Under the pieces are notes generated by a model that saw only the letters and a list, made by a program, of their open reading frames with translations, was not told the origin of the DNA and made no database searches. Below, one piece after another: positions 12,601 through 15,600 of a stretch of 64,000 nt of DNA (position 1 is the first letter of the stretch; each line of letters opens with the position of its first letter). This DNA is from Actinoplanes derwentensis. Its GTDB lineage: Bacteria; Actinomycetota; Actinomycetes; Mycobacteriales; Micromonosporaceae. The DNA lies in assembly GCF_900104725.1 (NCBI RefSeq), contig NZ_LT629758.1:2976001-3040000 (forward strand), given 5' to 3'. Both the position numbers and the translations under genes were made by a program.

Positions 12601-15600
12601 CACGGTCGACACGTAGGCCAGGTCCGGGGTGTGGAAGGTGAGGGTCTCCACCACGGCCCGGAAGTCGTCAAGCATCGGGTCCATCAGCCGGGAGTGGAAC
12701 GCGTGGCTGGTGCGCAGCCGGGTCGTCTTCCAGTCCGGCATCTCCGGAACGTCCGGGCCGGAGACGACCACCGCGCGGGGCCCGTTGACCGCGGCGATGT
12801 CGAGGTCCGGGAACGCCGCGCGCACCTCGGCCTCGGACGCCTGCACCGCCACCATCGCCCCACCGGCCGGAAGAGCCTGCATGAGACGGGCACGGGCGGA
12901 CACCAGGGTCGCCGCGTCCGTCAGGGAGAGCACTCCGGCGGCGTGGGCGGCGGCGATCTCACCGATCGAGTGGCCGGCCACCACGTCGGGTTCCAGGCCC
13001 CACGATCGGATCAGCGCCAGCAGGGCCACTTCCAGGGCGAAGATCGCCGGCTGGGCATAGCCGGTGTCGTCGACGTCGAGAGACGTTGCACGGGCAAGGT
13101 CCGAGCGCCTTTCAGCGTGGTGATCCGGGGTTCGATTCGCACCCGAAGTCACCACGCTCTTCGGGGCACGGGACGTCTCCAGCAGCGCGGTCACCTCGTC
13201 GTAGGCGGCCCGGTAGACCGGGAACGCCTCGTAGAGTCCGCGGCCCATGTCGCGACGCTGCGAGCCCTGGCCGGTGAAGAGGACGGCTAGGGGTGCCCGG
13301 TGGGCTTCGCCTGAGGTGATCGGGCCGGTCAGGGCGTGGTCGAGGGCAGTGCGGTCGGCGGCCACGAAGACGGCGCGGTGACGCAGTGGTGCCCGGCTGG
13401 CCAGGGTCCGGGCCAGCTCGCCGAGCGGGGCGTTCGTCCGGTGCAGGCGGTCGGCCTGAGCACGGAGGGCGTTCTCGTCGGCTGCGGTGATCACCACCGG
13501 CACGGCCGACGCCAGCGGCACGGCCGACGCCAGCGGCACGGCCGTCACTACCGGCACGGCCGGGCGGGCCGTGCCGGTGACGGGGAGCGCGGTGCTGGTT
13601 GGGGACGGTGCTGCTTCGAGGATGACGTGGGCGTTGGTGCCGCTGATGCCGAACGACGACACGGCTGCACGACGTGGGCGGTTCGCGGACGGCCATTCGC
13701 GAGACGACGTCAGCAGCTCCACTGAACCAGCCGACCAGTCGACCTGCGAGGACGGGCTGTCCACGTGCAGCGTTGCCGGGAGCACCCCGTACCGCATCGC
13801 CTGAACCATCTTGATGATCCCGGCTACACCAGCCGCAGCCTGCGTATGACCCAGATTGGACTTCACCGAACCCAACCACAACGGGTCACCGGAACGATCC
13901 TGACCATAGGTGGCCAGCAGCGCCTGCGCCTCGATCGGGTCGCCGAGGGACGTGCCGGTGCCGTGTGCCTCCACGACGTCGACGTCGGCGGTGCTGAGCC
14001 GGGCCGCAGTAAGGGCCTGGCGGATGACCCGTTGCTGTGAGGGGCCGTTCGGGGCGGTCAACCCGTTGGAGGCGCCGTCCTGGTTGACCGCGCTCCCTCG
14101 TACCACAGCAAGGACCTTGTGCCCTTGCCGTTGAGCGTCGGACAAACGCTCCACCAGCAGCATGCCGACACCCTCGCCCCAGCCCGTGCCGTCAGCGGCC
14201 TCCGCGAACGACTTGCAGCGGCCGTCCGCGGCCAGACCACGCTGGCGGGAGAAACCGACGAACGTGGACGGCGTCGCCATCACCGTCACACCACCGGCCA
14301 GCGCCATCGAACACTCACCGTTACGCAACGCCTGCACCGCCAGGTGCAGGGCGACCAGTGACGACGAGCAGGCGGTGTCGACGGTGACGGCCGGCCCTTC
14401 CAGGCCGAACGTGTAGGAGACCCGGCCGGAAGCGATGCTGCCGCCCGTACCCATGAAGCCTTCGGTCTCTTCGTCTGATCCTCCGAGGACCATGGCGTAG
14501 TCGTTGTACATGACGCCCACGAACACGCCGGTCCGTGAGCCGCGCAGTCCGAGCGGGTTCGCTCCGGCCCGTTCGAACGCCTCCCACGACGTTTCGAGGA
14601 GCAGCCGGTGCTGCGGGTCCATGGCCAGGGCCTCGCGCGGCGCGATCCCGAACAGTGCCGGGTCGAAGTCCGCGGCGTCGTGCAGGAAGCCGCCCTCACG
14701 GGTGTAGGACGTGCCGGGATTGTCCGGGTCGGGGTGATACAGATCAGGCCAGCCACGGTCGGTGGGGAATAGGCCGATGCCGTCCCGGCCGGTGGACACC
14801 AGCTCCCACAGATCGTCCGGCGACGCCACCCCACCCGGATAACGGCAGGCCATGCCGACGATCGCGATCGGCTCGTCGGCGGCGGTGACCGGGGTGGCCG
14901 CTGTCGGAACGGTGGCGGCCGGGGCGGGCCCGGCGAGTTCGGTGGCCAGGTGACCGGCGAGGACCTGCGCGTTCGGGTAGTCGAAGACCAGCGTGGAGGG
15001 CAACCGCAAGCCGGTGACCGTGGCCAGGCGGTTGCGCAGGTCGACGGCGGTCAGCGAGTCGAAGCCGAGTTCGCGGAACGCCCGGTCCGCTTCGACCGCG
15101 TCCGGCCCGGGGTAGCCGAGCACCCCGGCCACGTGAGTGCGGACCAGGTCGAGGGCGGCCCGTTCCCGCTGGTTGGTGGGCAGGCCGGCCAGCCGCCGGG
15201 CCAGGGCGTTGTCGGTGCCGGCGTTCGCGCGGACCGGTACCCGGACCAGGCCGGCGAGCAGCGGCGGCAGCAGCCCGGCAGCGGCGGCGACCCGCATCGG
15301 CGCGAGGTCGAGAGCCAGCGGTGCGACGGCGGCGTGGCCGGCGCCGAGGGCCGCGTCGAAAGCGGCCAGGCCCTGCTCCGGGGTCAGTGGCAAGATGCCA
15401 CCCTGCCGGGCTCGGGCCCGTTCGGCGTCACTCAGCGACGCGCCCATGCCGGCTTCCCACAGGCCCCAGGCCAGCGAGGTGACAGGCACGCCTTCGGCGC
15501 GGAGATTGCTGGCGTACGCGTCGAGGAAAGCGTTCGCGGCGGCGTAGTTGGCCTGTCCCGCGTTACCGAGCACGCCCGCCGCCGACGAGTAGAGCACCAC

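Follow-up and report, generated by a model that had tools for sequence, protein, structure and literature searches.

We analysed a window, i.e., a contiguous stretch of 64,000 nt, from the genome of Actinoplanes derwentensis. Its minus strand carries an ORF of 7233 aa (9688..31389) that encodes a modular type I polyketide synthase (PKS). The last module of this PKS, C4, contains an acyltransferase (AT) domain at 12337..13281 (minus strand), which corresponds to residues 54-368 of the translated piece 12103-13440 and scores above the cut-off of PF00698 (E 2.7e-48). Both the GHSIGE motif (12934..12975, minus strand) and the HAFHS motif (12691..12705, minus strand) are intact in translation; we take the latter to be malonyl-type.

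Within this domain, the interval 13072..13179 (minus strand) spans 108 nt and is translated into 36 residues where, according to the alignment with sister ATs, seven of them have 18 nt. The original prediction had placed a palindromic element here that keeps the reading frame and avoids the catalytic motifs. Sequence and ORF reading confirm this, i.e., the element is real and the frame stays open through the whole ORF. The loop that holds the insert is followed by the TGYAQPA helix and then the GHSIGE elbow.

The loop is longer than that of the sister ATs, as had been claimed, but the proposed number of nine sisters with about 6 residues does not hold. Measured from DEV to TGYAQ, the C4 loop has 42 residues, while the ten other window ATs that were aligned have 12 (seven domains) or 23-27 (three domains). 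The same loop comprises 13-26 residues in 27 ATs of other genomes, such that all other 37 aligned ATs range from 12 to 27, and 39 and 35 residues are found in two solved ATs. Thus, the length of the C4 loop alone is not extraordinary; its sequence is. Compared to the seven short sisters, C4 is longer by a net 90 nt (108 vs 18 nt). This is the figure that had been given for the extra sequence, while the outer arms enclose 100 nt.

The same PKS also shows low-complexity or short repeated peptides at 18856-18903, 21358-21399, 20581-20670, 17554-17649 and 13498-13539, among them PSPSPS, PAPAPA, ASGSPL-like, RPxH..V-like and VPLASA, which suggest fast-changing linkers.

Arms and fold of the insert

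We propose that the repeat copy extends over 100 nt at 13080..13179 (plus strand). It is bounded by an outer inverted repeat with the left arm GAGACGT (13080..13086, plus strand) and the right arm ACGTCTC (13173..13179, plus strand), which pair perfectly over 7 bp. Further inside, the inner arms AGCGTGGTGA (13114-13123) and TCACCACGCT (13148-13157) pair perfectly over 10 bp. The alignment of copies identifies a 43-nt palindromic core common to the dispersed copies at 13115..13157 (plus strand), from which we took a 39-nt search pattern (13117-13155). Both pairs of arms can be read in the sequence as originally described, and so can GACGTC at both ends (13072-13077 and 13172-13177). In addition, the 5-nt direct repeat ACGTC (13082..13086 and 13172..13176, minus strand) has a period of exactly 90 nt, i.e., the net gain compared to the short sister modules. 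It is a weak candidate for a target duplication, being too short for proof.

The two flanks differ in how well they relate to other copies. The left arm of the window copy scores 36 against the long arm of other copies (top shuffle 23), while the right arm scores 14, which is below the top shuffle of 22 and not significant. The right arm was counted into the proposed extent for its ACGTCTC end, and the 100 nt are a proposal since this flank falls short of significance.

When folded as RNA, the 108 nt reach -52.5 kcal/mol (z -3.7), a value that none of 200 shuffles equals, which is in accordance with the predicted long hairpin. As DNA, the 100 nt show a z of -3.5 with one shuffle equal, and the 43-nt core a z of -4.1. 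By itself, the fold is a moderate signal for a real element; a chance hairpin is ruled out by the 160 genomic copies reported below. We also considered GC3, but the insert is mildly low (0.67 vs a mean of 0.85, with 5.5% of windows equally low), which is weak and does not prove a foreign origin. Membership in an Rfam family was rejected since all matches stay under their gathering scores.

The loop of the palindrome, GGTTCGATTC (window 13129-13138), is T-loop-like, i.e., it resembles what we take to be the tRNA T-loop motif. ARAGORN finds no tRNA gene in the window.

Copies in the host genome

Given the 39-nt core pattern and up to 3 mismatches, we find 160 copies in the 10.65-Mb single-contig genome, compared to 0 for the reversed-pattern control. 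A BLAST of the genome with 120 nt yields 65 strand matches (self included), and at least 150 scored strand matches are obtained with R1, a covariance model built from 30 own-genome copies that diverged copies may escape. The alignment of these 30 copies results in the 43-nt palindromic core with the outline GCGTGGTGANTTNGGGTTCGATTCGCACCCNAANTCACCACGC. The search for further copies that had been suggested thus succeeds in the host as well as in relatives, while arms recognisable elsewhere are confined to one outer arm of the window copy.

Outer arms are a property of some copies. Using consensus strings that were derived from the two-armed copies themselves, 16/117 copies match one string beyond the core and 9/117 the other, in each case better than any shuffle. 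The two arms occupy separate flanks in 4/117 copies (L004, L014, L029, L160). For the window copy (L001) and L183, both strings match one and the same flank. The long-arm pattern occurs at 5 places of the genome, each adjoining a known copy, and the search of the own genome revealed no long-arm site away from known copies; an autonomous parent with the same arm was therefore dismissed. The Y1 transposase model (Y1_Tnp, PF01797) has no match in the own genome at E<=0.001, while 5/14 control genomes are positive, such that a REP driven by a RAYT was discarded as well.

Extended copies (L002, L004, L007, L012, L013, L014), when read by eye, have an outer end that adjoins CTAG.

Covariation within the genome is weak, i.e., 5 pairs changed on both sides vs 4.6 (297/500 shuffles). 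Some stem positions vary independently per side, with 12/30 copies unpaired at two pairs.

Genomic context and spacing

To describe where copies sit, we classified 117 of them in 77 loci, obtained with a somewhat looser pattern that allows up to 4 mismatches; the rest of the 160 is outside the classification. Genes were called by a purpose-written small Viterbi script instead of a standard caller. Among 82 copy groups, 42 are placed between convergent genes, 30 between codirectional and 2 between divergent ones, while 7 are in genes and 1 is at an edge. The baseline, i.e., gene pairs of the same loci without a copy, shows 12 convergent, 55 codirectional and 31 divergent pairs. Divergent placement is therefore rarer than in the baseline (Fisher p 4e-7). 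The nearest 3' end of a gene has a median distance of 20 nt and lies within 60 nt for 58/72 groups. According to the caller, 17/117 copies are mostly coding; ten of these are in short or partial calls and were left out of the in-gene count.

Adjacent copies follow each other with a pitch of 61 nt in 29/36 cases, with many spacers differing between arrays. TTTT within 18 nt of the core is present in 2/234 flanks. Arrays with the 61-nt pitch, comprising two to at least four palindromes, can be seen in the own genome (L021, L180, L181) and in relatives (L264, L266, L267).

Distribution among relatives

With R1 at E<=0.01, 18/60 genomes of the genus (own included) are positive, and high numbers are reached in a few; the high-copy genomes include G000, G007, G014, G052 and G056. 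At E<=1e-4, the model detects copies in 14/250 genomes of the family, 13 of which (again counting the own) belong to the same genus. The palindrome of the other-genus genome that passes this search (G089) looks different. The own pattern with up to 2 mismatches is found in 5/7 relatives tried, namely with 18, 18, 3, 3 and 1 copies.

Other genomes have arms of their own, e.g., GTGTCGA/TCGACAC or GTGGGGA/TCCCCAC, and the stem is kept. For a sample of 23 copies picked by hand, we counted 43 cells changed on both sides vs 18.8 in shuffles (reached by 0/500; 6-16 in slid controls). Counted by pairs instead of cells, 9 are changed on both sides vs 7.0, a value reached by 38/500 shuffles. In arrays of relatives, which like the copies were hand-picked from the best matches, the pitch is 61 nt in G056, G014 and G007, 60 in one G052 array and 37 in one G058 array. 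That is, the 61-nt pitch is common to species with different arm sequences.

Sites without the repeat

One empty site was observed. At the convergent gene pair around L004, the aligned flanks enclose 114 nt including the copy, while the orthologous site of G055 has 24 nt without the palindrome; the flanks are 83% and 87% identical. The upstream gene stops with TAG here (in the CTAG abutting the copy) and with TGA in G055, and no target duplication is evident at the empty site. R1 at E<=0.01 reports nothing in 18 loci homologous to this site, in 58 loci of ABC-transporter and helicase relatives, or in 78 loci coding for related ATs. The last result bears on the possibility, raised along with the original prediction, of the same insert as an ordinary inherited loop in AT domains of unrelated clusters: R1 matches 0/78 of the AT loci.

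We did not accept the ABC-transporter and helicase relatives as clean empty sites since their linkers are hypervariable; among the 29 aligned helicase relatives, four rows stop before the site. AT orthologs were rejected, too, as none is close enough. Because the best outside relatives of the C4 AT are 58% and 63% identical, its empty site rests on the sister modules. A search of 67 genomes for AT orthologs at E<=1e-120 was so strict that the sister modules fail too.

Copies within proteins

The 7/82 groups in genes comprise six internal copies, all in frame, and one at the C-terminus of an FAD-binding protein. Three of the internal copies are in PKS genes, namely in the C4 AT of the window, between KS and AT (genome position 2956719) and between AT and KR (genome position 3063073). 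The others are placed between the two domains of an ABC transporter, between UvrD_C and PDDEXK of a protein with these domains, and in a 547-aa ORF without Pfam hit. For the copy at 3063073, 1/3 of the sister alignments shown has a 15-residue gap over the element peptide and 2/3 have none.

Together, the three PKS copies cover about 107 kb in a region rich in PKS genes, and the 144 kb read there contain no further copy. The right-hand two belong to a run of adjacent large PKS ORFs, and the left copy is about 20 kb of other ORFs away; all three likely, rather than certainly, lie in one cluster. In-gene copies are in excess in this region (3/6, binomial P 3e-5), which is a post hoc observation that leaves PKS genes elsewhere in the genome uncounted.

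Two reading frames are used, one of which gives a peptide like RGEFGFESHPxSPH, and the third frame hits the TGA in GTGGTGA. The element peptide is present in 0 of the 120 PKS homologues listed. Since most classified copies are behind genes and the protein sites examined against relatives are loops or linkers that vary anyway, the protein copies look like tolerated by-products. For relatives, 37 copies were checked (22 loci, 18 of them distinct places) and one doubtful in-gene candidate emerged, while the same test recovers 6/6 internal copies of the own genome. In-frame residence may therefore be peculiar to this strain.

Interpretation

The computation shows that the insert belongs to a dispersed palindromic repeat family, with its copy number, frame and position, its absence from the relatives examined, and one orthologous empty site elsewhere. 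We explain it as a copy of a lineage-specific repeat of the REP/MITE type that probably entered a variable AT loop and was tolerated in frame. Following this explanation, a family with a 43-nt core and in some copies outer arms (up to about 100 nt) would have multiplied in an Actinoplanes-type lineage, where it is found for the most part directly behind genes. One copy, bearing one outer arm or both, would then have inserted into the C4 AT at a loop of variable length, where it would be read as about 30 extra residues. Three features would explain why it was tolerated, namely a net gain divisible by three, a core without stops in two of its three frames and a loop that accepts length. We infer that copies moved in trans by means of an enzyme; the longer AT is presumably expressed, and the insert should be near-neutral for the enzyme. 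Neither the Y1 search nor the arm pattern ties a transposase to the family and no firm target duplication is observed, both of which count against this explanation. So do the right outer arm unmatched in other copies, the reliance of the AT empty site on sister modules, the near lack of in-gene copies in relatives, the mildly low GC3 and the weak covariation within the own genome. The overall interpretation of the original prediction is partly supported: a palindromic repeat of the host does lie in frame within an AT, while present mobility and a diversifying role for megasynthases stay hypothetical. The absence of further copies in host and relatives that would have spoken against it is not what we see.

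A serious rival, to which we assign slightly less than even chances, regards the palindrome primarily as a functional element of 3' ends, i.e., a transcript-protecting or -ending RNA hairpin or a palindrome that binds a protein with a 61-nt register. Selection would maintain the copies behind genes, which would be the reason why the family is kept, and protein copies would be strays. The preference for convergent over divergent gene pairs, the short distance to 3' ends, the pitch shared with arrays of G056, G014 and G007, and the arms compensated between species are all in accordance with such a function. However, the near absence of TTTT shows that the copies are not classical intrinsic terminators, three of them are within long PKS genes, and the presence in less than a third of the genus genomes implies that there is no general need for the element. 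Moreover, a function at 3' ends does not explain dispersal on its own.

An unlikely alternative to transposition is that recombination or conversion between repeats already present spread the copies. The negative Y1 transposase search and the independent variation of the two sides at some stem positions would fit such a process, but it needs a copy at the target, and the relatives examined have none at four kinds of site. That the AT merely inherited a long loop of the ordinary kind, palindromic by accident, is hardly credible, since its sequence matches a repeat of 160 genomic copies, R1 has no match in the 78 AT loci and seven sister modules have 12 residues, even though loop lengths vary and those of the two solved ATs come near the 42 residues found here; no genome lacking the repeat was seen to have an AT with a similar sequence.

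It is conceivable, though less likely than not, that assembly-line enzymes repeatedly acquire new loops and linkers from an Actinoplanes-type repeat class that forms arrays with a conserved 61-nt pitch behind genes and also enters proteins in frame, as it has done three times in a single region rich in PKS genes. If true, the copies would mark places in AT, KS-AT linker and AT-KR regions where nature has made insertions that seem to be tolerated, and would caution against taking such loops for domain features. Furthermore, a 61-nt pitch across species with different sequences would make a binding protein or a copying mechanism testable.

Comparison with known repeat systems

Our literature search found no report of such a repeat in Actinoplanes or in a PKS. 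Like MITEs, the repeat is short, has no gene of its own and shows inverted outer arms in some copies. Regarding terminal inverted repeats, the window copy has 7-bp arms, and arms on separate flanks are found in 4/117 copies by the self-derived consensus strings. With respect to a target duplication, there is the ACGTC at 90 nt in the AT and none evident at the G055 site. For a parent transposon, the arm pattern leads to 5 places that are all by known copies, and the transposase search covered Y1 alone.

REPs and BIMEs are described as high-copy and extragenic elements near gene ends with mostly convergent or codirectional neighbours and regular spacing, some of them in ORFs (PMC3733652, PMC2817692). 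The Actinoplanes repeat resembles them as a high-copy palindrome (160 copies) that is extragenic, near 3' ends and rarely between divergent genes (42/30/2 vs 12/55/31). It differs in its core of 43 nt compared to 20-40 nt for REPs, in its 61-nt pitch, in a 30-copy consensus whose core ends carry neither GTAG nor CGTC as a tag, and in a host genome without RAYT/Y1 transposase match (PF01797). Since REPs are defined by such tags and this transposase, we do not file the repeat as a REP. A supply of stop codons has been reported for GTAG REPs (PMC3733652).

The original prediction had pointed to the RPEs of Rickettsia, and in behaviour this analogy is apt. RPEs are palindromic repeats of about 150 bp, many of which are read in frame in unrelated proteins, and 44 RPE insertions in genes are reported for R. 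conorii (PMC10969869; PMC3733652). The Actinoplanes repeat likewise has six internal in-frame copies in different proteins. In contrast to these 44 gene insertions, it is in genes in 7/82 groups, and its host is a GC-rich actinomycete; the likeness is one of behaviour. Palindromic repeats in frame have been described in Rickettsia as well as in several species rich in REPs (PMC3733652, PMC10969869). The same in-frame behaviour is now seen in an actinomycete of high GC content, where three of the copies belong to polyketide genes within a single region.
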